Shown here: in pieces, positions 30,200 through 44,694 of the stretch | Layout: each line of letters starts with the position of its first letter | How positions within the stretch are numbered: the first letter of the stretch is position 1 | Assembly: GCF_004364165.1 (NCBI RefSeq) | Contig: NZ_SOAY01000011.1 | Span: 372,001 to 436,000 of the forward strand | Source: Maribacter spongiicola | GTDB lineage: Bacteria > Bacteroidota > Bacteroidia > Flavobacteriales > Flavobacteriaceae | DNA length: 64,000 nucleotides | Direction of reading: 5' to 3' | Notes under the pieces: generated by a model | Told to the model about the DNA's origin: nothing | The model's database searches: none | What the model saw: the letters and a program-made list of their open reading frames with translations, nothing else | Position numbers and translations under genes: made by a program

Positions 30200-30236
30200 T
30201 ATGGTTTAAACCTTTGCAATAAAAGCGTTACATTTA

Positions 30237-30253
30237 AAAACCTAAAAGGTTTT
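30237..30253 (+). other. Short hairpin just upstream of comM
   Basis: AAAACCT (30237-30243) and AGGTTTT (30247-30253) pair around AAA and end 3 bp before the comM ATG. It could be a weak terminator for the upstream operon or could limit comM translation. Confidence 0.4.
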
Positions 30254-30256
30254 AGA

Positions 30257-31108
30257 ATGCTTACAAAAGTTTATGGGAGTGCAGTATTTGGTGTTGAAGC
30301 CACAACAATAATTGTAGAAGTAAATATCGACAAGGGAATTGGTTATCATTTAGTAGGGTTGCCCGATAATGCCATTAAAGAAAGTAATTATAGAATAGCT
30401 GCCGCATTACAGAATAATGGCTATAAAATTCCAGGTAAAAAAATCACTATAAATATGGCGCCTGCAGATCTTCGAAAAGAGGGTTCTGCGTATGATCTTA
30501 CCTTGGCTATCGGAATTTTGGCTGCATCTAGTCAAATTAAATCTGAAGATATTGAGAAGTATATCATCATGGGCGAATTGTCTTTAGATGGTAGTTTGCA
30601 GCCAATAACAGGAGCATTGCCTATTGCTATAAAAGCACAACAAGAAGGGTTTGCCGGATTCATTTTGCCTACTGCAAATGCAAAAGAAGCTGCTATTGTT
30701 GGAGATTTGAAAGTATACGGCATAGATAATATTAAACAGGTTTTAGATTTCTTTGATCAAGGTATTCCGCTTGAGCAGACTATAATTGATACAAGAGAAG
30801 AATTTTATAAGAATTTAGATTTTCCAGAATTTGATTTCTCTGATGTTAAAGGACAAGAAAGTATTAAACGCTGTATGGAGATTGCCGCAGCAGGCGGACA
30901 TAATATCATTTTAATTGGTCCGCCAGGCGCAGGTAAAACCATGTTGGCGAAGCGATTACCTTCTATTTTACCACCAATGACTTTGCATGAAGCTTTAGAA
31001 ACTACTAAAATACATAGCGTAGTTGGCAAAATTAAGAATATGGGTTTAATGAGTCAACGACCATTTAGAAGTCCCCACCACACAATTTCCGATGTTATAT
31101 TATTGTAA
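30257..31108 (+). pseudogene. comM: comM (yifB), 5' half, interrupted by the mobile element
   Basis: The first 280 codons of a ComM/YifB-type AAA+ helicase (Mg-chelatase-like), which drives branch migration when single-stranded DNA integrates during natural transformation. The N-terminal ChlI-like domain (KVYGSAVFGVEATTIIVEV, AAALQNNGYKIPGKKITIN) is complete, and Walker A IGPPGAGKTMLAKRLPS lies near residue 220. The host frame ends at FRSPHHTISDV. The last codons (ATA TTA TTG TAA) come from the inserted element. Walker B, sensors and the C-terminal domain lie 12.3 kb away, so this fragment cannot be an active ATPase. Joining at GATGTT gives 511 codons, the normal length. Confidence 0.95.
31075..31096. 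other. Left attachment junction (host half of attB plus core)
   Basis: The host arm CCACCAC (31075-31081) is followed by nine bases and the core GATGTT (31091-31096), where comM sequence ends and element sequence begins. The same core recurs at the right end, at 43402-43407. Confidence 0.8.
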
Positions 31109-31142
31109 TGTGATATAATCCAATTTATATTATATTTGGAGT

Positions 31143-32936
31143 ATGATAGGTATATATACAAGGCTTTCCGTAGAGGATGATATTAGTACATCGATTGAAA
31201 ACCAAATCAATGAGGGCAAGGTTTTTGCAAAGAATCGTAAATATGAAATTTATAATGAGGGTGAGGGCATAAGTGGTCGAGCAGATATAAAAGATAGACC
31301 CGTACTTGATAAACTTATGCGAGATATTGCCACCGATAAAATTAATATAGTTTGGTTCAGGAATCAAAATAGGTTAGAGCGAAATAGTGAAACTTTCATT
31401 GCATTTTCTTCTTTAGCTAAACGAAAAAAGATTGAAGTTTATTTCAATGATAAACAAATGGATTGGAACGACCCGACCAATTATTTACAGTCCTCAATTC
31501 TTACTGCCATTAATAGTTATCAAGCTGAATTACAAAGTTACCAAACAAAGAAAGTTTTACTTAATAGAGTTTTGGAGGGCAAAGCACATGGTAAGAGTAC
31601 CCCGTTAGGTTATACCAAAGATGATGAGGGCTATTTAATAATTAATAATGAAGAAAAGCCCATTGTCGAAAAGATATATGAAATGTGCTTAGAGGGTAAC
31701 GGTTCTACAACTATTAAGCATTGGTTGAACGATAACAATATACCAACTAGGTACAGTAAAAGAGATGGTACATTTAAAATCAAGAATGCAAATACTGGTA
31801 AGATAACCCACAAGAAAAAAAGTGATGTTATCTGGTCGGATAAACAAGTACAGGATATTTTAAAAAATCCAATGTATAAGGGTAAAAGAAGGTGGAAAGA
31901 TAAGTTGATTGATTGCCCTAAAATATTCAATGAGTTTTATTGGGAAAAGGTACAGGTGCAGTATGAGAAAAATAAAGATTCAAATAATACAGGAAAGAAG
32001 GTAGACCACTTGTATTTGTTGAAGGGTTTGTTAGAATGTGGTGAATGTGGACGTAATTATTACGGGCGTACCAGAATAAGTAAAAAAGATAATTACTACA
32101 TGTGTTCCTCTAAAAGGTACAAGCAAGAAAAATGTACCAATAGGAGCATTAACATTGATGTACTGGAAAGTTTTGTATGGACTACCATCTTTGAAAATAG
32201 AACCATATTTCAAAAGGTACAAACAGCCTTTAAAGATGGTGGACTGGATAAAAAGAAGGTTGAGTTAGAAAACAAGATTAAAGACTATCAGAAGACCTTA
32301 AAAGCCCTCGATAAAGAGTATAAGAAATCTATAGATTTAGTAGTTAGGGGTGTGGTAGAAGAAAGTGATATTACAGAAACTAAAAATAGGGTAGTTAGGG
32401 AAACCAATAAGATAAATGAACATCTTACCAATGATGAGAACGAACTAAAGAGCCTAGTCAATGAAACATTTATATTAACTCAAATAAAACATGACTTAGA
32501 TTTTGGTGTTCAAACAGGTATCGACTGGGGTATAATTAACGAGATTGTCGGAAACGGGCAATTTGAAGATATTACAGACCTAAAAAGGAGAAAGTTGGCA
32601 AAAGATAGATACGACCAGTTAAACAAAGATGTTATTGATAATAGAGAAAAATCCGCAATTGTTGAACATACCCCATACAACAAGAAGAAAGAAGTATTAA
32701 CCAAGTACCTAAAGAGAATATATATACAATACGATAAGGAAAGTAAGATATACACCTTAAAAATTGATTACGACCTACCAATTGAAGATGAGAGCTATTA
32801 TATAGATAGTAACTACATAGCAGCGTATGCCCCACAACAACAAAAGATAGTGGACTGGCATTTTATAGGTAGACACTTTACCAATGAAAAGATTGAAGAT
32901 ACATACAATCAGCTCAAAAATTACGTAAGTAACTGA
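31143..32936 (+). CDS. Large serine recombinase (integrase)
   Basis: This 597-residue site-specific recombinase is probably responsible for integration into comM. The N-terminal resolvase domain (about 1-150) begins MIGIYTRLS with catalytic Ser9, and WFRNQNRLERN holds the conserved arginines. A Recombinase domain follows (about 160-270: GYTKDDEGYLIINNEEKPIVEKIYEMC). The zinc ribbon has Cys299, Cys302, Cys321 and a fourth Cys near 331. A coiled coil spans about 360-450. Layout and length are standard for phiC31/TP901-type integrases. The gene lies next to the left junction, the usual place. No recombination directionality factor is recognised. Confidence 0.93.
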   Translation: MIGIYTRLSVEDDISTSIENQINEGKVFAKNRKYEIYNEGEGISGRADIKDRPVLDKLMRDIATDKINIVWFRNQNRLERNSETFIAFSSLAKRKKIEVYFNDKQMDWNDPTNYLQSSILTAINSYQAELQSYQTKKVLLNRVLEGKAHGKSTPLGYTKDDEGYLIINNEEKPIVEKIYEMCLEGNGSTTIKHWLNDNNIPTRYSKRDGTFKIKNANTGKITHKKKSDVIWSDKQVQDILKNPMYKGKRRWKDKLIDCPKIFNEFYWEKVQVQYEKNKDSNNTGKKVDHLYLLKGLLECGECGRNYYGRTRISKKDNYYMCSSKRYKQEKCTNRSINIDVLESFVWTTIFENRTIFQKVQTAFKDGGLDKKKVELENKIKDYQKTLKALDKEYKKSIDLVVRGVVEESDITETKNRVVRETNKINEHLTNDENELKSLVNETFILTQIKHDLDFGVQTGIDWGIINEIVGNGQFEDITDLKRRKLAKDRYDQLNKDVIDNREKSAIVEHTPYNKKKEVLTKYLKRIYIQYDKESKIYTLKIDYDLPIEDESYYIDSNYIAAYAPQQQKIVDWHFIGRHFTNEKIEDTYNQLKNYVSN

Positions 32937-33145
32937 TATTAAGTTATTTGTATTTACTAGGGTAGGGTCTCCATTAGTTTATATGACATACTTTCTATTG
33001 TCGAACCCACTTTATAAGGTATTTGTCGGGGGCTTTACCAATGAAAACAGGTATTCGCACCACCTTCACACCCTCTTGTTGATAAGAAAAATGACCTCAT
33101 GCCAACATCCTTACACGTACACGGTAAATAAGACTTTTTGGATAT

Positions 33146-33421
33146 TTAAGTAAAGTGAAGGAAGCACAGACCTAATAAGCTAAAGACTGTCAACCATAGC
33201 CCTATTTTACCAATACTTTTCCATAAAGTCCATTTAGAGCCTAAGCTCCTAGATTCTTTATAACTTTCAAATTCCATGTTACCACTTGAATTTCGTCGGT
33301 TGAACATTTCTTCTTCTGACTTGTAATTATATCTTCCTCCAATTACAAAAAGAGGAAATCCAATAAAAAATGCAATGCTGAAAATTCCATGACCTACAAA
33401 AAAATCCCAAATAACTCCCAT
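33146..33421 (-). CDS. Small two-TM protein of unknown function
   Basis: This is a 91-residue protein with a hydrophobic segment at residues 8-28, a charged middle and a second segment near the C-terminus (IGLWLTVFSLLGLCFL). The middle contains MFNRRNSSGNMEFESY. Its layout (TM, a Gly/aromatic-Ser-Tyr central motif, TM) resembles the 34309, 34720 and 34970 loci, suggesting a divergent family. I recall similar small proteins in Bacteroidota, often with misleading transporter annotations, but know no function. It is leftward, between the integrase and resolvase genes. Confidence 0.6.
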   Translation of the reverse strand: MGVIWDFFVGHGIFSIAFFIGFPLFVIGGRYNYKSEEEMFNRRNSSGNMEFESYKESRSLGSKWTLWKSIGKIGLWLTVFSLLGLCFLHFT

Positions 33422-33556
33422 AAATTAATTTTTTGTGTTGAGCGAACAATTTAAAAAAAAATTAAAAGCTAAATGTAATTTGTTGAAAATTTGTTGATTA
33501 AGTAAGGGAATAGTACTAAGAATACCTTTAATCGAATATAATTACAAAACAACAAC

Positions 33557-33600
33557 GAACGTTCTAGTAATGTAAAATATAGTTCTATCTTAGCTATATG
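33557..33600. promoter_or_regulatory. Palindromes upstream of the resolvase gene
   Basis: GAACGTTC (33557-33564) is a perfect palindrome. ATATAG (33577-33582) and CTATAT (33594-33599) are inverted arms running into the start codon. They are candidate resolvase-binding or autoregulatory sites, by position only. Confidence 0.35.
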
Positions 33601-34236
33601 CAATACATAACCTACTACAGAGTATCGACCAAGAAACAGGATTTAGGCTTAGAAGCCCAACAAACGATTATCAGAAATTACTTAAAAGATGATGATGAGG
33701 TACTGGCATCTTATAGCGAGAAGGAAACTGGTACTAAGAAAAGGGTACAGTTGGAATTGGAAAAGGCTATAGAACATTGTAAGCAAACTGGTAGTACTCT
33801 TTTAATTGCCAAATTGGATAGGTTAGCCCGTAACGTGTCGTTTATATCCACTCTAATGGACAGTAATGTTGAATTTAAGGCATTGGATATGCCACACGCT
33901 AATAAATTAACTATACACATCTTTGCAGCTATTGCGGAACATGAAGCCGAACTAATAAGCCAAAGAACCAAAGCAGCTTTACAGGAACTTAAAAAGAAAG
34001 GTGTTGTACTGGGTAAGCCCGAAAACTTTAATCAAGTTGGCAGGGATAAAGGGGTACGGACTAATAAGGCTAAGGCATCCAACAATGAGAACAACCGAAA
34101 GGCTAAGGCGTATATCAAATCTTTACTTGTACAGGGGCTAAATCATTCGCAGATAGCAAAAGAACTCAATACAAATGGATTTACTACAAGTAGGGGTAAG
34201 AGGTTTCAAGCCGTACAGGTGCAGAGGTTGAGCTAA
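33598..34236 (+). CDS. Small serine recombinase (resolvase/invertase family)
   Basis: This is a 212-residue serine recombinase. MQYITYYRVSTKKQDLGLEAQ carries catalytic Ser10, and LLIAKLDRLARNVSF is the conserved arginine block. The dimerisation helix (KLTIHIFAAIAEHEAELISQRTKAAL) is followed by a C-terminal helix-turn-helix (GLNHSQIAKELNTNGFTTSRGK). The size is that of DNA invertases and resolvases rather than integrases. It could resolve element multimers, invert a promoter or act on another site. Palindromes lie directly upstream. It is distinct from the large recombinase at the left end. Confidence 0.93.
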   Translation: MQYITYYRVSTKKQDLGLEAQQTIIRNYLKDDDEVLASYSEKETGTKKRVQLELEKAIEHCKQTGSTLLIAKLDRLARNVSFISTLMDSNVEFKALDMPHANKLTIHIFAAIAEHEAELISQRTKAALQELKKKGVVLGKPENFNQVGRDKGVRTNKAKASNNENNRKAKAYIKSLLVQGLNHSQIAKELNTNGFTTSRGKRFQAVQVQRLS

Positions 34237-34308
34237 TAAATGAATTCTCTACTTCTATTTTATTATAATTTAACTTAAATTGTAAGAATAATATAATTCA
34301 GGATAAGA

Positions 34309-34548
34309 ATGAATACAAATGGATGGTTGGGAGTTGTTTTAGCAGTCACTGGTTTAGCTTTTGTAATTTTAAAAAAGAATTACGAGTTCAAAAATAGAAC
34401 GGATAGTGGTGTTGTTCAGTATACAAGTTCTTTTGTTGCCTTTTTGTGGTACTTGTTAGGGATGTTGGGTGGATTTATGTTTATTGCTGGTTTAGTTATG
34501 GCTATTTTTAATTTTGGTTTGAGTGGTAGCAGATTAAGATACTGGTAA
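34309..34548 (+). CDS. Small two-TM protein of unknown function
   Basis: This is a 79-residue protein with two hydrophobic helices (about 5-22 and 42-68) around KKNYEFKNRTDSGVVQYTSS. The next 400 bp contain a frameshifted copy (34720) with the matching segment YNYEFKNRT, so this is a duplicated gene. Short length, an ATG start, codon use like its surroundings and the existence of a paralogue support it as real. No function is known. It resembles the leftward genes at 33146 and 34970 in layout. Confidence 0.6.
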   Translation: MNTNGWLGVVLAVTGLAFVILKKNYEFKNRTDSGVVQYTSSFVAFLWYLLGMLGGFMFIAGLVMAIFNFGLSGSRLRYW

Positions 34549-34719
34549 AAGGAGTAGTTACTAATAATTTTTTCATAAACTAAACTATTTAGATGCCAAC
34601 ATTAGTTACCGAACTAAAGGAAGGAGCTGTGTACATATGAAAGGAAACTTAGTTAAACAATGTCAGACTAGGAACTGTAATGAAGGTTAAAGGATTAATT
34701 AATTTTAAAGTTGTTTAGA

Positions 34720-34945
34720 ATGAGTAAATATACTTATGGTTGGTTAGGCTTAGTGGTAGGTATTGTTGGAATTATTATCCTAATAATTAAATACAATTAC
34801 GAATTTAAAAATCGTACTAGTGGGGGGTGTTAGGTTTAATAGTTTTTTTTAGTTCTTTTCTTTCATATTTTATAGGTGGAGTTGGATTATCCTAACTGTA
34901 GGTGGTGTGCTTATGGGAATATTTATCTTTTCATTTGGTAAATGA
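34720..34945 (+). pseudogene. Frameshifted paralogue of the 34309 small membrane protein
   Basis: The ATG at 34720 reads GWLGLVVGIVGIIILI, then YNYEFKNRTSGG, and stops at a TAG after a run of six G. One base shift restores GVLGLIVFFSSFLSYFIGG, and a second near 34888 restores ILTVGGVLMGIFIFSFGK up to TGA at 34943-34945. The three pieces together align with the 79-residue protein at 34309. The first shift is at a homopolymer, so phase variation or a sequencing error there should also be considered. As read, the copy is broken twice. Confidence 0.65.
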
Positions 34946-34969
34946 TATATAAATAATCTTTAAATTTTT

Positions 34970-35236
34970 TTATAAAACAATGCCGAGAACCCAATAAAAG
35001 ACTAACATACTAAATAATATAAATACTACTCCAACCATACCTAAACAACCATACCTTTTTTCTTTTCTTTCCCTCTTTAATTTATTGTCGTAAGTTTCAT
35101 ATGCATTGACCCCAGGATTGTCATGTAATTTTTTTTTACGTTTATAATCAGCTTTTCTGCTCTTGTTAAACAGAAGTAAGCCAATTATGAAAAAAACTAT
35201 ACAAATTGCAAATAGTATAGGTTTATACTTTACCAT
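34970..35236 (-). CDS. Small two-TM protein of unknown function
   Basis: This is an 88-residue protein with a first helix at residues 6-24 (ILFAICIVFFIIGLLLF), a strongly basic middle (KADYKRKKKLHDNPGVNAYETYDNKLKRERKEKRY) and a second helix at residues 66-86. The central GVNAYETY recalls GVVQYTSS in the 34309 protein and NMEFESYK in the 33146 protein. It is leftward and convergent with the frameshifted copy. The basic loop suggests cytoplasmic exposure of the middle. No function can be named. Confidence 0.6.
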   Translation of the reverse strand: MVKYKPILFAICIVFFIIGLLLFNKSRKADYKRKKKLHDNPGVNAYETYDNKLKRERKEKRYGCLGMVGVVFILFSMLVFYWVLGIVL

Positions 35237-35443
35237 AAAATTATTGTGTTTAATTTATATTGGTACTAATATACTAATTTTAAGAAATAATAAATTCGCT
35301 TGTTGTGGTTATCAAAGGCACTACCAACCAAACTACAGCGAACAATAACCATTCATACCAAACCATAGAGCGTTTATACATGAATTTTGGTTAAGGGAAT
35401 TATCATTATCGGTTTCTAGATTTTTTAAAATTTCAACCTAAAC

Positions 35444-36049
35444 TTATGGTTCACTATCTTCAATTTTTGGTTTACTTTTTTCTTCCTTTTCCTTCTGCTT
35501 CTTTATTTTTTCTGCTTCCTTGACTAATTCTAAAAAAGTTTCACCTTTATACTTAGTTTCTGCATCAATATAAATTTGATTTTTGTGATACCATAGGAAG
35601 AATCCTATATTCATCATAATTAAACCAAATAGAAACAGAATTTTCATTTCCCATGAATCAGAACTATTAATTAAGTACTCAATTTTATTCTTTTCTTTCT
35701 CTAGTTTATATTGCACATTATCGGCTTCAACTTTTTCTATGGCTAATTCAGCTTGTCGCAACGATTTTATAATTTCTTTTAGCTCTGTTGAATCTTTGGC
35801 GGAAATAATTACATTTATAGAATCAGTATTACGTTCTATATGGTACTTTTCTAGAAGTTGGTTATACTCTTCCCAAACTTTATCGTACCTTCTATTGAAG
35901 TTAGAGTTTTCATGATTGTATTGAATTATTAAGTCATTGGCATTGCTTCTTAAAGAAGTGATTAAATAAAGCGAAAACACAAAAATAATTAAACCGAAAA
36001 TAGCCATGAACTTGTAGAGGTTATCGGTAGGAAGGTTAGGTACATTCAT
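35444..36049 (-). CDS. Membrane-anchored coiled-coil protein of unknown function
   Basis: This is a 201-residue protein. A hydrophobic helix at residues 14-30 (IFGLIIFVFSLYLITSL) is followed by a long charged heptad-rich region (about 35-130, for example IKSLRQAELAIEKVEADNVQYKLEKEKNKIEY). A second helix (about 137-157) and a Lys/Glu-rich tail complete it. The layout of two membrane segments enclosing a coiled coil suggests an oligomerising inner-membrane protein. I recognise no family. It lies leftward upstream of 34970 with a 207 bp gap in which I see no further gene. Confidence 0.65.
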   Translation of the reverse strand: MNVPNLPTDNLYKFMAIFGLIIFVFSLYLITSLRSNANDLIIQYNHENSNFNRRYDKVWEEYNQLLEKYHIERNTDSINVIISAKDSTELKEIIKSLRQAELAIEKVEADNVQYKLEKEKNKIEYLINSSDSWEMKILFLFGLIMMNIGFFLWYHKNQIYIDAETKYKGETFLELVKEAEKIKKQKEKEEKSKPKIEDSEP

Positions 36050-36130
36050 ATTATAAAGCTATCTAAAGTTCTGGTTGACAGTGGATAAATTGAATTTTGG
36101 TTATTCACATAAGTATCAACAATATATTAA

Positions 36131-36403
36131 TCATTTTACTCTCAACATTTCCCATCCATGATGAGGTATAGCCCAATACCCTAGTGAATCAATAATAAAT
36201 ATGCTAATTCCTGACGGGTAACGATGATATAAAGAGATGTTACCTGTATTACACTCATATTCAATATAAAAGCCTTTCATGCTAAGTGGTTTTTGAATTA
36301 TACCTGCATCCTTTAAAGCTCCTTCATACCTTTCTTTGCCTATTTCCTTTAATAGGTTTTTTATAGCTTTTAAATCGTAATTTCTAAATACTAATTTGGA
36401 CAT
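36131..36403 (-). CDS. Hypothetical protein
   Basis: This is a 90-residue soluble protein. The N-terminal half is helical (LKAIKNLLKEIGKERYEGALKDAGI) and the C-terminal half looks beta-rich with many aromatics (KGFYIEYECNTGNISLYHRYPSG, GYWAIPHHGWEMLRVK). It has no signal peptide, membrane segment or recognised motif. It is leftward in the element's cargo region, 81 bp upstream of the coiled-coil membrane gene, and may be co-expressed with it. Confidence 0.55.
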   Translation of the reverse strand: MSKLVFRNYDLKAIKNLLKEIGKERYEGALKDAGIIQKPLSMKGFYIEYECNTGNISLYHRYPSGISIFIIDSLGYWAIPHHGWEMLRVK

Positions 36404-36488
36404 TTTCCAAAATTATGGAATAAATCCTAATTAGGTGATTAGATTTAATATATTATTTTAACAACTTTATTTTTTGACTAAAACGGAT

Positions 36489-37097
36489 ATGAATAGATAT
36501 ATAAAGGCAATGGAAATTGGAATGGCTAATGAACAGAATGGTATTAGTTATTTTGAATTGGTAAAACAAATTGAAAAATTTCAAGGTTATAGTTTTGGAA
36601 AAGAGTCGGAATTATCATTCTTATTTTGGTTTTCACAAAATTTCAGTCGAAGTGACCAAAAAATTAAATCGACTGATATTAAAAATTATCGGCTTGTTTT
36701 GGATAAGAAATATGGTAAAACGGTGGCAGATGTGAATAAGGGGCAGATGGAACTGGCTAAGAAATTTTTAAGATATAAGTATTGGTTGGATGGTACGGCT
36801 TCCAAGCAATATTTGGATTATTTAGAACTACAAGAATCTCGTATAGCATCCACACAAGCCCGTAAACAGTCTAACATTTCAATTTGGATAGCATTAGTGG
36901 CAATTATTTTGAGTACAGCTTTGGGAGCTTATTCTATCTATTCAAGCCCTAAAACACCCTATGACGTAAAAATTATAGAGGATAAAACAAAAAACATAAA
37001 ATTTGAAAAGGAAAATAAGCAACTAAAGGAAAAACTATATAAAGCTGAATTGTTAATTAAGGTATTAGAGAAGAATGACAGTTTAAACTTAGGTTAG
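36489..37097 (+). CDS. Hypothetical protein with C-terminal membrane helix and coiled coil
   Basis: This is a 202-residue protein. I place the start at the ATG at 36489; a TTG at 36474 would add five residues. The N-terminal about 115 residues are soluble and mixed in charge (MANEQNGISYFELVKQIEKF). A single helix follows near residues 135-152 (ISIWIALVAIILSTALGAYSIY), then a charged coiled coil to the end (KTKNIKFEKENKQLKEKLYKAELLIKVLEK). This tail-anchored arrangement with an N-terminal sensor-like domain is seen in various cargo genes of mobile islands. I recognise no family and assign no function. Confidence 0.65.
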   Translation: MNRYIKAMEIGMANEQNGISYFELVKQIEKFQGYSFGKESELSFLFWFSQNFSRSDQKIKSTDIKNYRLVLDKKYGKTVADVNKGQMELAKKFLRYKYWLDGTASKQYLDYLELQESRIASTQARKQSNISIWIALVAIILSTALGAYSIYSSPKTPYDVKIIEDKTKNIKFEKENKQLKEKLYKAELLIKVLEKNDSLNLG

Positions 37098-37232
37098 GTA
37101 ATTGGCACTTGTTAATAACTAAATTACATTTCCAATTAAATTGTAAAACAGAGGTAAATATTACATTGATATTGGGTAATAGTGGTAAATTTTAGATTCG
37201 ATACTTCTTGTAATCTGTTAATAAGTTTGTTT

Positions 37233-37343
37233 CCTCCTAAGTGTCTAAAGTTGTTACCTTTACAAAAGAGAAATGCACCCGTAAAAGGTGCATCTATTGT
37301 AAGGAGGGTTAAACCGTTTACTAAACACTATTAGAGTAGTGTT
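37233..37343 (+). ncRNA. Candidate structured RNA (hairpin cluster)
   Basis: CCTCCT (37233-37238) can pair with AGGAGG (37302-37307). Inside it ATGCACC (37273-37279) and GGTGCAT (37287-37293) form a perfect 7 bp hairpin. Directly after it AACACTA (37324-37330) and TAGTGTT (37337-37343) form another. Three stems within 111 bases of AT-rich sequence suggest a folded transcript. The strand is a guess. Confidence 0.35.
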
Positions 37344-37847
37344 AACATTTTTAGAAAGATGTGTAATAGTCTAAAGATGATAATGTAAAAGGTTCTTAAT
37401 CCTCTTTTTTATTTATTCTTTATTGAGACAAATATAAAAATTAAAGTGGTCTATTGTACCACATTTGTTTACTACTTGTAAACAATTTTTTACTTGACAT
37501 TGTTTTAGGTGGGTTTCCTTGTCAATGACTTTAATTGTGGTTCTGGTGGTTTGCTTATTGAATGCTAAATAAGGGTAGGCGTATAGCTCTAAAATCGATT
37601 ATCTTTTCTTTTAGGTACAAATACCCTGCTCGATATAGTTGAGCGGTTATTGGGGGTAATGCTACTAGAATTTGCTATTTGAGTCATTCAACATAAACAC
37701 GACTTTTTAATTTAATCACTAAACTTTACTTTTTACTTTCTATAGGCTTACCAACCGACTTTAGGAGGTGGTATTTATAAATATTGACCTAGTGCAAGAA
37801 GTTGTCCAACAAGAAGATAATTTATAAGATTTTAAGTACACTTTTCT

Positions 37848-37971
37848 TTGTTTAACTCGATTTTAAAAATGCAAAACCTAGTCCAACAAATGGTTAGCAT
37901 TTAGGGTTTATGGTTACGTTCGCTGCGCTCTCTTTCTATTGTTTAACTCGATAGGAAAATGCACAATTTAG
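37848..37971. repeat. Two about 34 bp direct repeats, 91 bp apart
   Basis: Copy 1 (37848-37881) and copy 2 (37939-37971) share the exact 14 bases TTGTTTAACTCGAT and then a looser match (AAAATGCA.AA..TAG). GTCCAACAA also occurs twice nearby (37804-37812, 37881-37889), and CTTTGTTTAACT recurs near 42921. They may be binding sites for an element-encoded regulator or replication factor. Confidence 0.5.
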
Positions 37972-38330
37972 ATAATTAATGTACTATCTCTTGTTTTACA
38001 TATTTAAGAATTCAAAGTATCGGTAAATATTTGATTTTAAGTAGTTTATTTTTTTTTAATTATTGTAGCAAGTAGCTCATTCTAGTATATATACATATAA
38101 GATTGCACATTCAAATTTTAACAATGTTAACAAAAAGTTAAAGAATAAATTTTAAATAAACTCATTTAAAACTAGTAGGGAAACAGCTATAAACTATTAG
38201 TATATAGTTTTGGATATATTATTGTAATTTTGTATTTTTGTAAACTAATTAGTTAATTATATAAATTATTTTTACCAAAACGTATTTTGTATTAACTAAT
38301 ATGTAATATTTTAACATAATAATCCAAGAG

Positions 38331-38459
38331 TAGGTTTAGAACCTCGCCAACCGAGAATTACGGTGGTACATTACTTTAGTTAGTATGGATTAGGCAACAG
38401 CAAAATTAAATACCAAAAGTATAATAACCTCGGCTGTTAATTCAGTTCGGGGTTTTTTT
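38331..38459 (+). promoter_or_regulatory. Candidate attenuating leader upstream of the HTH operon
   Basis: An intrinsic terminator (AACCTCGGCTG at 38426-38436 with CAGTTCGGGGTT at 38443-38454, one bulge, then seven T from 38453) sits about 30 bp before the ATG at 38489. AACCTCG also occurs at 38340-38346, in a zone with alternative small stems (GGTT/AACC, CTCG/CGAG). The 3' arm of the terminator could therefore pair with either copy. This suggests an attenuator or riboswitch-like leader; the ligand is unknown. Confidence 0.45.
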
Positions 38460-38488
38460 AAGCCCAATTTTCAAAATGTAACCAAACT

Positions 38489-38668
38489 ATGGAAAAACTA
38501 AGAATATTTATACAAGAACGTAAAGCATTTAATCATAGCTATTTAGCTAGGGAGTCCCAATGGGACAAACTTGATTTTTCGAAATGGATAAGAAACAAAA
38601 TAGATGTAGTGCCACAACGGGTACTAGATAACCTTAAAAAGGTTTTATCTCTTTACGGTTATGAGTAG
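38489..38668 (+). CDS. Small HTH-like protein
   Basis: This 59-residue protein is too short for many gene finders. The sequence MEKLRIFIQERKAFN, then SYLARES and KWIRNKIDVVPQRVLDNLKKVL, has the helix spacing and the small Leu-Ala-Arg helix of Cro/XRE-type DNA-binding proteins. Its stop overlaps the start of the next gene (ATGAGTAG at 38661-38668), so the two are translationally coupled. It follows a terminator-like leader. A role as regulator of the operon or the element is likely but unproven. Confidence 0.65.
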   Translation: MEKLRIFIQERKAFNHSYLARESQWDKLDFSKWIRNKIDVVPQRVLDNLKKVLSLYGYE

Positions 38669-39464
38669 TGCTAACTGGTGGGAACAAACCCCTGAACAAG
38701 ATGCTGTACTTATAGTAAAAATAGACACAATAATATCTAAAGCAAAGTATAGAAACAACCTTAAAAGGAATGGCAAGAGTAAGGAAGCTAAGCAACAAGA
38801 AATAAAAAATAAGTATAGAAACCAATTTAAAAAAAATGATTTTGAACAGAAGTGGGCAAAGCTAAAAGATAGTGGGTTAATTCAGCTGGATAACTTAGAA
38901 TCAGTTGCAAAAGAAAACTATCATTTGTTTAACGGAGAAGCAGCAATATATGACCCAAAAGGTATAAAGTATATAAAAGTTAATTTACCTATAGGTAAAG
39001 TTGATTACTTCATTTATGGTACTTTCTTAAAAAAAATAGGTTTTCAATTTAGGTTCTGTAATCCTGACATTACTATTCAAGATTTAAACGATTATTTAAT
39101 TCACCTTTTTACCACATATGTAAAAGCCACACCTAAAAAGAACTTTGTTTATGATATTGATTTAATCGAAAAGATAGCACAATCAATATTTGATGAAAGA
39201 AGTTATCCAGTATATAGTAAAATTAAAGTTTTGTTCAACTCTGATTACAATTTAAACGAGAATGAAAAACAAGGAATTAGAAATAAACTAAGTGGAGCAT
39301 ATAAATCTAGTCAGGGCTTAGATAGGGTTGAAAAAATAAGTCAGCAATCCAATCTAACCCAACAACAAATGGCAGATAAAATAAAAATTAGCTTAGCCAC
39401 TTTTAAAAGAAAATTAAAGCTTTTAAGAGAATTACAAAAAGAGCAATTTCAAGAAGCAGCCTAA
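38661..39464 (+). CDS. Protein of unknown function with C-terminal HTH
   Basis: This is a 267-residue soluble protein. The N-terminal part is very basic (about 25-60, many Lys/Asn/Arg). A central mixed region (about 75-200) contains KYIKVNLPIGKVDYFIYGTFL. The C-terminal SNLTQQQMADKIKISLATFKRKLKLLREL is a clear helix-turn-helix, with the recognition helix in ATFKRKLKLL. It overlaps the small HTH gene by 8 bp. A basic body plus HTH suits a DNA-binding regulator or a replication or partition factor for the element, but no catalytic motif is visible. The family is not recognised. Confidence 0.7.
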   Translation: MSSANWWEQTPEQDAVLIVKIDTIISKAKYRNNLKRNGKSKEAKQQEIKNKYRNQFKKNDFEQKWAKLKDSGLIQLDNLESVAKENYHLFNGEAAIYDPKGIKYIKVNLPIGKVDYFIYGTFLKKIGFQFRFCNPDITIQDLNDYLIHLFTTYVKATPKKNFVYDIDLIEKIAQSIFDERSYPVYSKIKVLFNSDYNLNENEKQGIRNKLSGAYKSSQGLDRVEKISQQSNLTQQQMADKIKISLATFKRKLKLLRELQKEQFQEAA

Positions 39465-39488
39465 ACCAAAATTAACCTACTTATTAAT

Positions 39489-39827
39489 ATGAAGCAACCA
39501 AAAGAACTACCCAAAATCTTCACAAAAAGTTCTAAAACTTATACTCAAATATGTAAAACCGATAATGTTTACCAGTATGAGGTTGCCGACAATGACCCAA
39601 ACCACGAAAACATTTATTTTGAGGTGTTTTATAGACGAATAGCTAACGCCAAAACCTTTCCTAATGGTAATACAATGCCAGAGAGAATACTGTACCCCAA
39701 TAACGAAGCCTTTGGTAATTGGGCTTGGTGTATTTCAAGGGGTAACGATTATTTTTCTGCACTTAGAATAGCAAAAAAAAAGTTCAGCTTTATTGACGAG
39801 AAGAAAAGAATAAAACAATCAGCATAG
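39489..39827 (+). CDS. Hypothetical protein, third gene of the HTH operon
   Basis: This is a 112-residue soluble protein starting 24 bp after the HTH-protein stop. It is predicted mixed alpha/beta, with YQYEVADNDPNHENIYFEVFYRRIANAKTF and an aromatic stretch (NWAWCISRGNDYFSAL) before a basic C-terminus (KKKFSFIDEKKRIKQSA). There is no signal peptide or membrane segment. Position implies co-transcription with the two HTH genes. Function is unknown. Confidence 0.6.
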   Translation: MKQPKELPKIFTKSSKTYTQICKTDNVYQYEVADNDPNHENIYFEVFYRRIANAKTFPNGNTMPERILYPNNEAFGNWAWCISRGNDYFSALRIAKKKFSFIDEKKRIKQSA

Positions 39828-39878
39828 GTGAATAGAAAATGATAAATATTTTAATATGTCATTCTGTGCTTCTGATTT

Positions 39879-40274
39879 TTAAACATTTACTCCTAATTTA
39901 CTTAGAGCTATGTTAATAGGTATCCATATTATAAGCTTGTGTAATTCGTAGTATAAAAAATACAGTAGTATTGCTCCTAAAATGATTGAAATATAGTTTA
40001 AAATTCCTTTTTCAGTCTTAATTTGTTGATAGAATAACTTTATAAAAAAAATGTCCATTAGGCAGATAAAGCTTAATATCATTGCGTAAATAGGAACTCC
40101 GAAGATAATAGCAATGAGTTTTATTGTTAGACCTAAAACACCTTCTTTTGAATCAAATTTTATATTGATTAATGAGGGAATGAATAATAATAAAGAATAA
40201 GCAAAGAATATATAGGAAATTTTAGACTCTAAGAAGTCCTGTTTTACTTCTGATATTTTTTCTTTAAGATTCAT
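39879..40274 (-). CDS. Four-TM membrane protein of unknown function
   Basis: This is a 131-residue protein with about four hydrophobic helices (near residues 18-36, 46-75, 90-108 and 110-126). A short charged N-terminus (MNLKEKISEVKQDFLESK) precedes the first. It is leftward, between the R-M system and the HTH operon. No motif or family is recognised. The 225 bp to the methyltransferase stop (40275-40499) hold no further gene that I can support. Confidence 0.6.
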   Translation of the reverse strand: MNLKEKISEVKQDFLESKISYIFFAYSLLLFIPSLINIKFDSKEGVLGLTIKLIAIIFGVPIYAMILSFICLMDIFFIKLFYQQIKTEKGILNYISIILGAILLYFLYYELHKLIIWIPINIALSKLGVNV

Positions 40275-40499
40275 TTATTGAAAATAATAGAAACAGGGAT
40301 TTTGACAAATAGTTTTAAGTTTTTAAGGTTTATAATTAGGGGTAAGGCTATTGTTGTGGGGTATGGTATAACTTTTATAAAGGGCGTTGGTGAAGTTTGA
40401 GTATAGGATTCTTTTATTTTTACTATCAATATAGTGATAAAATGGTGTTTTTAGGTGTAGGTAAAAAAAAGTTTACTAAAAATTAAGCAAACAAATTTA

Positions 40500-41726
40500 T
40501 CATTCTTGTTCAATTTTATTCATAAAATCAACCAAACTTAAACCTAGTGCATAAGCCAGATTCACAGGAACAGCATTGCCTATTTGCTTATACTGTTGAC
40601 CTTTTGCGCCCTGAAATTCCCAACTATCAGGAAACGTTTGAATTCTAGCACTCTCCCTAACAGTTAAAGGTCTTGTTTCTTTAGGATGACACCTTTCTGT
40701 TTGTTTCATAGCAGGTGAGCAAACTATGGTCAATGCTGGTTTCTTCATAGATAACCTTCTGGCTAATCCAGTTTTTCCACCTCCTAGAAAATAACTACCA
40801 TTCATATATTCTCTTTGCAAGTCATCCGTCAAATTCTTCCAGTTTCCACCTTCTGGAACTTTTTCCATTATTTCTTTTTTTCTTTTCGGATATTCTACTC
40901 CTTCACTTTTACCTACATTTTTATCATACAACTCTCCCTTTTTAAAAGCATCGGAAACAGTCAGAACCTTATGATATTTACTAGGAAACGTATACTTCTC
41001 GATATTCTTTGCCAAATCATTCCTTATTCCAACAAGTATTAATCTCTCCCTTTTTTGTGGGACTTTATAATACATTGCTTTTAAAACCCTAGGCTCAATT
41101 AAAGTGTAACCAATATCTTTTATTGATTGTTTTATAACTTCAAGTGTTTTTCCCTTATCATGAGTGAAAAGACCTTTGACATTCTCTCCTATAAATATTT
41201 TCGGCTTTACTTCATTTATACATCTTGCAAAATCAAAAAACAAAGTCCCTCTAGTGTCTTCAAATCCTAATTTCTTCCCTGCGTGTGAAAATGCCTGACA
41301 AGGGAAACCACCCGTAACTATATCGACTTTATCTTTATATTCTAAAAAATCAACATTTTGAATATCATCCTCCAAGACATTCCATTTTGGACGATTGTAT
41401 CTTAATGTTTTACAAGCATTTTTTTCAAATTCGTTCAACAAAACATGCTCAACACCAGCCATTTCCATTCCTAATGCCATACCACCTGCTCCTGCAAATA
41501 ATTCAATTGAAGTGTATTCCCTGTTCGGCTTTATCTTAATAAATTCATCCCATTCAGAATTAAAGACTTCTTTAGCTATCTCAAATCTTAATAAACTTTG
41601 TTTATCATATTGTTTTACTCCATTAGACTTTACAGGAATAAGCTTGCCATTATTAGCCCAAGCATTCAATCGATGAATAGAAACATCTAAAAGGTTGCTA
41701 ACCTCATATTCATTAAATAACTCCAT
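40500..41726 (-). CDS. Type II DNA (cytosine-5) methyltransferase with N-terminal HTH
   Basis: This is a 408-residue modification enzyme. Residues 1-50 form a MerR/excisionase-like helix-turn-helix (YEVSNLLDVSIHRLNAWANNGKL). The catalytic domain then shows motif I IELFAGAGGMALGME (from residue 74), motif IV GGFPCQAFSHAG with nucleophile Cys143, GENVKG, motif VIII QKRERLILVG, motif IX RPLTVRESARIQTFPDSW and motif X QIGNAVPVNLAYAL. It methylates C5 of cytosine at the cognate restriction site. It starts 3 bp after the endonuclease stop. The HTH may let it repress its own operon, as described for M.SsoII/M.EcoRII-like enzymes. Recognition GGNCC is inferred from the partner nuclease family. Confidence 0.93.
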   Translation of the reverse strand: MELFNEYEVSNLLDVSIHRLNAWANNGKLIPVKSNGVKQYDKQSLLRFEIAKEVFNSEWDEFIKIKPNREYTSIELFAGAGGMALGMEMAGVEHVLLNEFEKNACKTLRYNRPKWNVLEDDIQNVDFLEYKDKVDIVTGGFPCQAFSHAGKKLGFEDTRGTLFFDFARCINEVKPKIFIGENVKGLFTHDKGKTLEVIKQSIKDIGYTLIEPRVLKAMYYKVPQKRERLILVGIRNDLAKNIEKYTFPSKYHKVLTVSDAFKKGELYDKNVGKSEGVEYPKRKKEIMEKVPEGGNWKNLTDDLQREYMNGSYFLGGGKTGLARRLSMKKPALTIVCSPAMKQTERCHPKETRPLTVRESARIQTFPDSWEFQGAKGQQYKQIGNAVPVNLAYALGLSLVDFMNKIEQE

Positions 41727-41729
41727 TAA

Positions 41730-42476
41730 TTAAAACTTAAATTTATTAAATCCTTCATATTTCTTGAATGATAATAGGTATATACTAGTTAGTAGGTCAG
41801 AGGATAATTCCTTCAATTCCTTAAAAACTGTATTTTCTTTACTTCTTAATTTAATACTATCAACAGCGTCTTTAATTACTGTAGGAAGAACTGAACATAA
41901 TTTTTGAAAAGCAAGTTCATCTCCTGTCACAATTTCATAAAATTTATCTATTGAGACTCTTCTGATATTTTTGTTTGAGGGTTGTTTGACTCCATCTAAT
42001 GTAATTACCCAAGGGATATTTTGACTTTTTTTAGCAATTATTTCAACTAAATAGCACTCGGAATCTGGATTTTTGATAATTGTACCTTGAAACCTCATAA
42101 AAGTCTTTGCGCCTGATGAGGAATTCATTGTATTATGTTTATTCTTCATTTCCACATAAATGTTATCCGTTACATTTTCAACGTCATAACCAGATTTAGG
42201 AACTTCCCATTTGTCGGAAAAATATTCGAATATATTTTGGTGGAAGTATCCAATTAGGTTGGAGTTCGTCTTGTCCAACTGTCTTAGAACTTCATTTTCA
42301 ATTGTCTCTTCATACTTTTGGTCATAAACAATGGAGTCAAATGTTAACTTAATCGGGTCTATTAAATTCTTATTAAATTTTTTTAAATCCATCTCAAAAC
42401 TGTAAGCCTGAACAGTCACAAGAACGTGATTGAATAAATCATCATCTGAAATAAACTCTAAACCATATTTACTCAT
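41730..42476 (-). CDS. Type II restriction endonuclease, Eco47II/Sau96I-like
   Basis: This is a 248-residue nuclease. The N-terminal SKYGLEFISDDDLFNHV and NLIDPIKLTFDS resemble, from memory, the RE_Eco47II family (GGNCC cutters). The PD-(D/E)XK core is visible as GYDV with Asp98, then YVEMKNKHNTMNSSSGAKT with Glu109 and Lys111. It lies immediately upstream of the methyltransferase in the same direction, so the nuclease gene comes first, with no control-protein gene. Translation probably starts at the second of two tandem ATGAGTAAAT copies. Specificity GGNCC is inferred by family only. Confidence 0.85.
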   Translation of the reverse strand: MSKYGLEFISDDDLFNHVLVTVQAYSFEMDLKKFNKNLIDPIKLTFDSIVYDQKYEETIENEVLRQLDKTNSNLIGYFHQNIFEYFSDKWEVPKSGYDVENVTDNIYVEMKNKHNTMNSSSGAKTFMRFQGTIIKNPDSECYLVEIIAKKSQNIPWVITLDGVKQPSNKNIRRVSIDKFYEIVTGDELAFQKLCSVLPTVIKDAVDSIKLRSKENTVFKELKELSSDLLTSIYLLSFKKYEGFNKFKF

Positions 42477-42486
42477 ATTTACTCAT
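42467..42486 (-). repeat. Duplicated start region of the endonuclease gene
   Basis: Leftward, ATGAGTAAAT occurs twice in tandem (42486-42477 and 42476-42467). The second ATG opens the endonuclease frame. The first, 10 bp earlier, opens a five-codon frame (Met-Ser-Lys-Tyr-Glu, then TAA, 42486-42469) that overlaps the true start and could lower nuclease translation. Confidence 0.6.
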
Positions 42487-42966
42487 ATTGATTTATGAAA
42501 AGAGACAAATTTAATCAAATACTTCTGAAGTTATTTAGTTCAAATAGCTGTTTACCTTAATTAATCAGATTCTTTTTAGTTCATTTCAATTGTAGCCTAC
42601 AAAACAGATTATTATAAATTTTAATGTAAGAAGGAAATTTTATAGCCAAATTCATTTCGAATACTATTGAATAAAATAAATCTCTTTTTATTTTGAGTTA
42701 GCCGTTATAATTAAATTACTTTAGGTAGGACTTGGTTAATTTGATAGGGGGTACGGGTAATTGGTGGGGGTGTATGGCAGTACTTTTTTAATGGACGGGG
42801 GTGTTATAGATAAATATTCATTTTTGTTCTATTCTGCTATAGTGTGTAGGATGTAATATAAAAAAAGGAGGGGGTAGTTTTGAATGAATTATTGAGGTTT
42901 GGGGGTAGGTAGATATATTTCTTTGTTTAACTTGTTTATGTAGATTTATTTCTCGTATTTGTCGGA
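42487..42966. other. 480 bp non-coding region with repeated G tracts
   Basis: The left half is plain AT-rich DNA upstream of the R-M operon. From 42747 to 42905 the plus strand has six G tracts of three to five bases (42747-42751, 42755-42757, 42766-42770, 42797-42801, 42870-42874, 42901-42905), unlike anything else in the window. I see no protein gene. Confidence 0.6.
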
Positions 42967-43362
42967 ATGAATAGAGTAAGTGTTAAACCCTTCAAAGCAA
43001 TTATTACCATAGGCTTACAAGTAGGCTATACCGATAAGCTAATTTCTAAAGCTGAAATAGTTGGTGCTATTCAATCATATCAAAACAGCCTAATTAAAGA
43101 TAAAAGTATCTATCTTAGTGTTGCATTGTCTGAATGTGATATAGTGTTAAGTGGTCAATTAGAACCACATCTACAGCTAAGTATTATAAACTATCCTAAG
43201 TTTCCAAATCATATTAGTATACTTAAAAAAGAGGTTGAAAACCTTACCACTTTTCTGATGGACAAGTACAATCAAAACAGAGTTGTTATTGAGTATTTAA
43301 ATGATGAAACGGTTATGTTGGAAAAATCGAAGGAGATAGATTTACGTATTAATAGTTTATAA
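42967..43362 (+). CDS. Hypothetical protein at the right end of the element
   Basis: This is a 131-residue soluble protein. It looks alpha/beta, with FKAIITIGLQVGYTDKLISKAEIVGAIQSYQ, then IYLSVALSECDIVLSGQ and LQLSIINYPKFP. It has no signal peptide and no recognised motif. It is the last gene before the right junction (43402) and reads outward toward it. Genes at this position can encode directionality factors or cargo, but there is no HTH to support a directionality role. Confidence 0.6.
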   Translation: MNRVSVKPFKAIITIGLQVGYTDKLISKAEIVGAIQSYQNSLIKDKSIYLSVALSECDIVLSGQLEPHLQLSIINYPKFPNHISILKKEVENLTTFLMDKYNQNRVVIEYLNDETVMLEKSKEIDLRINSL

Positions 43363-43373
43363 TCAACTGTTTA

Positions 43374-43398
43374 AATAGTATTACATTCAAATACTATT
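43374..43398. repeat. Inverted repeat next to the right junction
   Basis: AATAGTATT (43374-43382) and AATACTATT (43390-43398) are perfect inverted arms around ACATTCA, ending 3 bp before the junction core. ATTACA occurs twice here. This is a candidate recombinase-binding arm of the element's own attachment site. Confidence 0.55.
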
Positions 43399-43401
43399 AC
43401 A

Positions 43402-43424
43402 GATGTTGCTTTAGTAGGTGGTGG
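43402..43424. other. Right attachment junction (core plus host half of attB)
   Basis: The core GATGTT (43402-43407) is followed by ten host bases and GTGGTGG (43418-43424), the exact inverse complement of CCACCAC at the left junction. Rejoined, the two halves make a 39 bp imperfect dyad centred on the core. Confidence 0.8.
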
Positions 43425-44103
43425 CTCATACCCACAACCCGGTGAAATTTCTCTTTCGCATAACGGAGTATTATTTTTAGACGAATTACCTGAATTTAAG
43501 CGTGGCGTATTAGAGGTAATGCGTCAGCCTTTAGAAGATAGGGAGGTTACGATTTCTCGAGCTCGTTTTACGGTAACCTACCCAAGTAGTTTTATGTTGG
43601 TGGCTAGTATGAATCCTAGTCCGGGTGGGTATTTCAATGACCCAGATGCTCCAGTAACTTCATCACCTGCAGAAATGCAACGGTATTTAAGTAAAATATC
43701 TGGTCCGCTTTTGGATCGTATCGATATTCATATTGAGGTTACTCCGGTTCCGTTCGAAAAGTTATCCGAAGAAAGAAAGGGTGAGAGTAGTGTCGAAATA
43801 CGAAAACGTGTTACTGCAGCGAGGGAATTACAGACTGTTAGATTTGAATCCATGGAAAATGTGCACTATAATGCACAAATGAATACGAAACAGATTCGCG
43901 AATATTGTAAGCTAGACGATAAGTCTAAGGCATTATTGAAAAATGCAATGGAGCGTTTAAATCTATCGGCACGTGCGTATGATAGAATTTTGAAGGTAGC
44001 AAGAACTATTGCTGATTTAGCCGGTGAGCAGGCACTGAACGGTAATCATATTTCAGAGGCCATTCAATACCGTTCACTCGACAGAGAGGGTTGGTTGGGG
44101 TAA
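43402..44103 (+). pseudogene. comM: comM (yifB), 3' half, separated from its start by the element
   Basis: Reading from GATGTT in frame gives DVALVGGGSYPQPGEISLSH, then Walker B NGVLFLDELPEFKRGVLEV, the sensor region PLEDREVTISRARFTVTYP and MLVASMNPSPGGYF, and the C-terminal Mg_chelatase_C domain (NAQMNTKQIREYC, YDRILKVARTIADLAGEQ). These are the missing parts of the 30257 fragment: 234 codons to the stop at 44101-44103. No RBS/ATG is well placed at the junction; the first in-frame ATG is at 43519, after Walker B. The fragment should be inactive unless the element excises. Confidence 0.95.
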
Positions 44104-44130
44104 AATTTTAATTCATAAAGAGTTGTTCAT

Positions 44131-44694
44131 TTAAGAATATAGCTCCTCATTATTAGTATCGTCTTCGTTATTTTTTGGTGCCGTAAAAATATCTTTGAGT
44201 ATGTAACTGGTTACAATGGTTAGACCAAGGGTAAGGGTCGGTATTGCGTAATCCCAACTTAATAATTTCATGAGACCACCACAGATTAGGGTGATAACAC
44301 CTATCACCATTACAAAATTCCATATGATTTCGGTCGTGCTATTCTTAACACGATCTTCTTTAGACATGAAGTAAGAAGTACCTTCCATCGCAAACCATGC
44401 TACGAAAGTAAATGCGGTGCCGATTTGAAAAAACAGCGTATGGGTAAAATCTAAAATAGTTAGTAATCCATTGGTCGTCCAAAAAAGTACCAATGCCATT
44501 TTAATTAAATCGACGGTCTTTTTTTCTTCCTTTTTCAAAAAACGCAGTCCATAAAGAATAAGAATTGCTGCAAAGGAGATGAAAATTATTCCTTTAGAAA
44601 ATGGCCAGTCAAGTATTCGCATCACCATACCTATTAAAAGGGTGGCTATTGCTGCTCTAATCGGATTTCTAAATGCTTTTTTAGAATTTTCCAT
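44131..44694 (-). CDS. Polytopic membrane protein of unknown function
   Basis: This is a 187-residue protein with about six short hydrophobic helices in pairs. It has a charged cytoplasmic loop (KKEEKKTVDLIK) and an acidic C-terminus (APKNNEDDTNNEELYS). The repeated pattern ILDWPFSKGIIF and KLLSWDYAIPTL, a helix ending in D/S-W then P, faintly recalls the GldL gliding-motility membrane segment, but the protein lacks the GldL C-terminal domain. It starts 10 bp downstream of the zinc-finger gene, in the same direction, and the two are probably co-transcribed. Confidence 0.7.
   Translation of the reverse strand: MENSKKAFRNPIRAAIATLLIGMVMRILDWPFSKGIIFISFAAILILYGLRFLKKEEKKTVDLIKMALVLFWTTNGLLTILDFTHTLFFQIGTAFTFVAWFAMEGTSYFMSKEDRVKNSTTEIIWNFVMVIGVITLICGGLMKLLSWDYAIPTLTLGLTIVTSYILKDIFTAPKNNEDDTNNEELYS

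Follow-up and report, generated by a model that had tools for sequence, protein, structure and literature searches.

We present a 12,311 bp element that splits the comM gene of Maribacter spongiicola, a member of the Flavobacteriaceae (assembly GCF_004364165.1), found in a window of 64,000 nucleotides (contig NZ_SOAY01000011.1, positions 372,001 to 436,000) whose first letter is position 1 for all coordinates below. It is very probably an integrative element that encodes the large serine recombinase (LSR) responsible for recombining its dyad-symmetric attachment site, attP, with a single chromosomal site, attB, inside comM. The presence of a site-specific LSR element in this gene is strongly supported, and comparison with its relatives places it, as far as sequence can tell, in a family of LSR elements that target comM. 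It is likely that the insertion is to be understood as a selfish element or defence island.

The comM reading starts at 30257, reaches a GATGTT hexamer at 31091-31096 and resumes at a second copy at 43402-43407, the stretch shared by the two ends being exactly 6 bases. The left open frame counts 283 codons because four codons of the element are read through before a stop. When the flanks were joined by script they gave 511 codons with one terminal stop, which is the length of the intact comM of the same genus, and the two halves match successive parts (1-276 and 278-499) of the TIGR00368 model 'YifB family Mg chelatase-like AAA ATPase', as well as both matching Pfam Mg_chelatase. In the joined product, Walker A (GPPGAGKT) begins at residue 221, the junction falls at Asp 279 and Walker B (LFLDE) begins at residue 302; hence, the two motifs lie on opposite sides of the element. 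An earlier interpretation of this DNA, hereafter the sequence-only reading, had described precisely this in-frame split at GATGTT, with 511 codons on joining and with Walker A to the left and Walker B to the right; its interval, 30257-44103, does span the whole split gene, whereas the element proper runs from 31091 to 43401. Its proposal that excision could restore comM holds in principle, in that the uninterrupted comM of another member of the genus (G286; G, C and L numbers are our own labels for genomes, contigs and loci) aligns with the joined flanks gap-free, at 89.5% nucleotide identity over 1536 bp. It had also raised the possibility of a second intact comM, and this is ruled out, as the sole match of the N-terminal half in the host genome (a 4.46 Mb draft) is the split copy itself.

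The split is more than a chance event, because the LSR has relatives at this codon in a further 14 genomes and the GC content of the element (0.305) is below that of its flanks (0.341). LSR relatives at E<=1e-60 were present in 12 genomes, the host included, of a 397-genome sample of the host family, and a scan of genome contigs yielded six. With the comM halves as probes for occupied sites, we found comM interrupted at codon 279 in 15 distinct genomes: ten of the 12 from the family sample (the host, G039, G049, G063, G086, G090, G155, G188, G304 and G360) and, from the contig scan, G397 (Aquimarina agarilytica), G398, G399 (Galbibacter pacificus), G401 (Christiangramia lutea) and G402, the sixth relative of that scan being G188, which is counted once. 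The halves of comM lie on different contigs in G086, G188 and G360, and 12 elements were recovered whole. In a sample of the phylum (385 genomes, E<=1e-70), three genomes pass, namely the host and two from other families (G614 and G749), in both of which the LSR adjoins a comM half that starts or ends at the codon-279 place. The sequence-only reading had suggested looking among related genomes for uninterrupted comM and for other islands at the same codon, and both exist, in G286 and in the 14 genomes, respectively. A strict attL pattern was dropped as a means of census, since it picked up just 4 of the 10 genomes of the family sample known to be occupied. Phage and plasmid records returned distant LSRs only, the best listed place being of 25.8% identity in phages, and none had a single place covering >=80% at the joining rule used; one viral contig (L109) carries a 3' fragment of comM beside a distant LSR.

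The junctions themselves delimit the core of the site. GA opens codon 279 in both junctions in 14 of the 15 genomes, and the bases after it vary between junctions (GAT vs GAC in G402 and G090; GT vs AT following in G360). As these later bases differ between the junctions in some genomes, GA is left as the shared core. We also joined the ends of each element and scored the dyad symmetry. The sum reaches 232 of 375 matches at GA, with 156 at the next best offset, and GA is the best center in 14 of the 15; CACATT and AATGTG stand 13-14 bases from it in the attP arms of most elements. The recombinase gene reads with comM in eight of the 12 whole elements and against it in the other four (G063, G397, G398 and G401), lying 4.8 kb inside the right end in G063. 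A tree built from the 12 recombinases, well supported at only 2 of its 9 inner branches, shows the two orientations mixed: parsimony requires four changes, and well-supported branches force no fewer than two of these. Read along comM, the core is GA throughout, even as the orientations are mixed on the tree; we therefore infer that attP has reversed its direction with respect to the recombinase gene on more than one occasion.

The LSR frame is uninterrupted and contains all three domains expected of such enzymes, and the residues that we take to be catalytic are invariant in all 12 recombinases. The sequence-only reading had considered that the recombinase might be inactive; judged by its domains and open frame, it is intact. 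Inward of the LSR gene, the element encodes a small serine recombinase. Adjacent minus-strand genes for a C5 methyltransferase and an Eco47II-family endonuclease constitute a type II restriction-modification (R-M) pair, and these Pfam assignments, together with the LSR domains, uphold the earlier description of a serine-recombinase element that carries its own restriction system. The remaining element proteins that were scanned belong to no clear family in Pfam or NCBIfam. No virion genes were recognized in the element (Pfam on 10 element or comM proteins, NCBIfam on 10), and no relaxase or conjugation genes among the window proteins scanned with both collections, several short open reading frames (ORFs) being outside that scan. 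About 1.4 kb at 37100-38480 is devoid of any ORF of 60 aa; an RNA feature in this gene-poor region (~37.1-38.5 kb) was considered and rejected, as no Rfam family reaches the gathering threshold there or elsewhere in 30000-44500.

Features of the split comM gene and the element inserted in it (window coordinates)
Feature	Position	Strand	Basis
comM 5' part, codons 1-278 and GA of codon 279	30257..31092	+	Pfam ChlI, Mg_chelatase; TIGR00368 1-276; Walker A at residue 221
Integrated element, 12,311 bp, GC 0.305	31091..43401	.	shared-stretch and length computation
attL core copy GATGTT; predicted crossover dinucleotide GA at 31091-31092	31091..31096	+	junction comparison, dyad scoring
Predicted right arm of attP (has AATGTG) and recombinase gene leader	31093..31142	+	dyad with other end centered on GA, 18/25 positions
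Large serine recombinase (LSR), 597 aa	31143..32936	+	Resolvase, Recombinase, Zn_ribbon_recom domains; relatives found
Small serine recombinase, 212 aa	33598..34236	+	Pfam Resolvase 2.9e-27; copy 73% identical in element of G155
201-aa protein, no assigned function	35444..36049	-	weak relative in element of G039
207-aa protein, no assigned function	36474..37097	+	weak relative in element of G399
59-aa ORF overlapping next gene	38489..38668	+	no family match
267-aa protein, weak C-terminal helix-turn-helix match	38661..39464	+	sub-threshold Xre-like-HTH, RstR
C5 cytosine DNA methyltransferase, 408 aa	40500..41726	-	Pfam DNA_methylase 1.4e-87
Eco47II-family restriction endonuclease, 248 aa	41730..42476	-	Pfam RE_Eco47II 2.3e-85
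131-aa protein, no assigned function, at element end opposite recombinase	42967..43362	+	no Pfam or NCBIfam match
Predicted left arm of attP	43363..43401	+	dyad scoring
attR core copy GATGTT	43402..43407	+	repeat match
comM 3' part, 233 codons from Asp279, Walker B, C-terminal domain, natural stop	43402..44103	+	Pfam Mg_chelatase, Mg_chelatase_C; TIGR00368 278-499

The whole elements span 6.8-32.9 kb, and the LSR is the only gene common to all 12, other ORF clusters occurring in at most three elements; small serine recombinases are present in at least seven. Predicted defence genes were observed in eight of the 12: the type II R-M pair of the window element, a C5 methyltransferase with an MvaI/BcnI endonuclease (G401), a type III R-M system (G304), a type I R-M system with PDC-M01 (G049), a type II methyltransferase (G063), LmuB (G397), PDC-M63B (G402) and ShosA, the last recognized by a DprA-like model (G090). 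The elements of G155 and G398 gave no PADLOC match at 1e-30 for the one and two proteins scanned, respectively, and those of G039 and G399 are prophage-like, with phage head, portal, terminase or tail genes. Since relatives at codon 279 thus bring along different defence systems or genes of phages, the recombinase and its site behave, across the 12 recovered elements, like a landing pad whose cargo varies.

Several further insertions touch on comM or on LSRs of the host. The comM gene of G398 (L090:5423-17864, on G398:C1) harbors two LSR elements, one near codon 21 and the other at codon 279, and the LSR of the former is 32% identical to that of the window. In G384 (L084:575-1473; L085, which is G384:C1:886574-916483), where codon 279 encodes Ser and not Asp, comM is interrupted about 15 codons further downstream, with a distant LSR (24% identity) adjoining. 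The comM of G048 is split over two contigs (C280 and C236) that end near codon 279 (at residue 274, and at residue 1 of the 3' part), and these breaks may conceal another insertion. The host genome encodes a second LSR of 24-25% identity (G000:C4:185309-187021; L032:9310-11022), which starts beside a 187-aa ORF that, read by eye with no search, resembles the beginning of a TonB-dependent receptor whose gene has been interrupted.

The condition of comM in the occupied genomes bears on whether the insertion is reversed. The element might serve the lineage as a reversible switch, whereby regulated excision and re-entry would turn comM, and with it efficient transformation, on and off in the manner of the Listeria comK prophage (PMC6872733; here and below, what we draw from cited papers refers to the portions of their text that were available). 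Both comM halves are open in 13 of the 15 occupied genomes. The host halves compared with the intact comM of the same genus give a ratio of nonsynonymous to synonymous substitution rates (dN/dS) of 0.016, which is within or below the 0.024-0.037 of the intact pairs (dS finite in three of six); dS was finite in four of six same-genus occupied/intact pairs. By a simple bound, the unconstrained fraction of the branch is <=3.6% for the host, and <=8.5% over the five finite pairs of six. Moreover, as the host genome encodes ComEC and DprA, transformation of the host is possible. All of this would suit a switch; however, intact halves are equally what a recent insertion predicts, and the data on constraint fit a young insertion and an often reversed one alike. 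Furthermore, among the 12 genomes open to substitution tests (G398 and G399, with comM not comparable, and G086, with a core mismatch, having been left out), 11 of 12 comparisons showed more replacement changes on the occupied side than on the intact one, a hint that constraint is slightly relaxed, albeit drawn with intact rows that were picked because they were close to the window. In G399 comM has decayed by frameshift and stops, and in G398 the same gene has received a second LSR element; the stops in the N-terminal half of the latter were not counted as decay, its start having been set 36 bases early, inside that second insertion. Finally, no excision factor was recognized: none of the small proteins encoded by the element is widespread, and the 59-aa ORF at 38489 has no relative among the loci compared and no Pfam match. 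The 24-base junction of the excised circle has no exact match in viral contigs, a weak test. On balance, we regard such a switch as improbable. The phrase 'switch on DNA uptake' used in the sequence-only reading was in any case imprecise, for published work has ComM acting after uptake, in recombining the incoming strand (PMC11472951, PMC4774983).

The opposite fate, a dead or domesticated island that has become fixed with comM simply lost, is exemplified by the decayed gene of G399 and would also accord with the state of G075, a 99% complete genome of the same genus in which neither comM half finds a match at E<=1e-10. Yet the window retains an intact recombinase, intact att arms on either side and two intact comM halves, and the excess of replacement changes is too small for a long dead period, making this decidedly improbable. 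An origin by a Tn7-like or other transposase, as with AbaR in the comM of Acinetobacter, can appeal to the identity of the target gene (PMC11472951, PMC7508600); but the gene at the end of the element is a serine recombinase common to all 12 recovered elements, and Pfam scans of 10 window proteins detected no Tns-type transposition genes or other transposase, so we give it hardly any credence.

Certain observations weigh against the proposal of a mobile, site-specific LSR element of comM. In the family sample, two relatives out of the 12, those of G200 and G229, sit elsewhere: the 19.9 kb retrieved with the recombinase contain no comM, and both genomes have intact comM genes in other places, with open frames of 517 and 512 codons. 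The best dyad of G155 is three bases away from GA, and G086 has a mismatched core, with GC in attL vs GA in attR. No transfer genes were recognized in the window element, and the absence of a detectable comM in G075, of the same genus, bears on whether losing ComM would matter to the host. The defence content was judged on chosen proteins of the ten elements other than the prophage-like ones of G039 and G399, and integration and excision are predicted from sequence comparison. As to G086, its junctions are on different contigs (C11 and C18; L022 and L091), for which a tandem of two elements or a later mutation are candidate causes.

Taken together, we favor an integrative element that uses a single site in comM. 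The predicted attB lies in the stretch of comM coding for the conserved SPHHTISDVALVGGG motif, and crossover would take place at the GA of codon 279; comparison of genomes reveals the use of this site, and the chemistry of recombination is presumably that of the recombinase family. The insertion is expected to abolish ComM because it separates Walker A from Walker B. The likeliest beneficiary would be the element itself, which gains a target that is conserved and that almost all hosts possess. The insertion might also make the element harder for the host to lose via transformation with homologous DNA, an argument made in PMC4774983 and PMC11472951. Excision with the help of an accessory factor would then restore comM as a by-product of transfer. 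A bolder extension is that there exists a Bacteroidota-wide LSR family for which one comM codon serves as a common landing pad where defence islands and prophages can be exchanged; the attP arms being near-symmetric, the GA core alone would set direction, and hence the repeated flips, while movement in and out would be frequent enough to keep comM under selection, with anti-phage cargo and competence alternating in the population. This we consider improbable.

The precise, conserved attB in the comM of Flavobacteriaceae, with its predicted attP and core, is usable for testing the trade-off between defence islands and natural transformation, which to our knowledge has been little studied in this phylum. 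Likewise, the set of occupied and empty comM genes allows measuring how long such insertions last.

The targeting of magnesium-chelatase-type genes by LSRs is already reported as common: Durrant et al. (PMC10083194) describe distantly related LSRs converging on magnesium chelatase/ATP-dependent protease (comM-type) genes, with homologues of this gene targeted by 12.4% of the predicted site-specific integrases and with target genes enriched for DNA competence. The present element shares the comM-type target with theirs, and what we add, with reference to the text of that paper and not its supplementary tables, is the exact codon, the GA core, the dyad attP, the mixed orientation and the cargo of 12 elements. 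We found no paper on an LSR family at comM codon 279, in a search that did not cover supplements and is no proof of absence. In Acinetobacter baumannii, comM is interrupted by AbaR and other defence-bearing elements (PMC11472951), and removal of AbaR restores transformability (PMC7508600). The likeness thus extends to the interrupted gene, to cargo often including defence systems and to the high transformability restored by repair of comM in that species; however, AbaR is described there as Tn7-like, whereas the window element, from another phylum, has a serine recombinase. Insertions of mobile genetic elements in competence genes have been proposed to protect these elements from loss by transformation (PMC4774983), and our observations recall both this advantage and the finding that a single orthologous position in comM is used again and again; the comM elements of that study, for their part, share an integrase like CF65_00446. 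The Listeria prophages A118 and phi10403S in comK are likewise integrase-bearing elements in a competence gene whose precise excision restores the frame (PMC6872733). There, however, excision is regulated and comK is a regulator, whereas ComM is a recombination helicase and the window element is without recognized virion genes.

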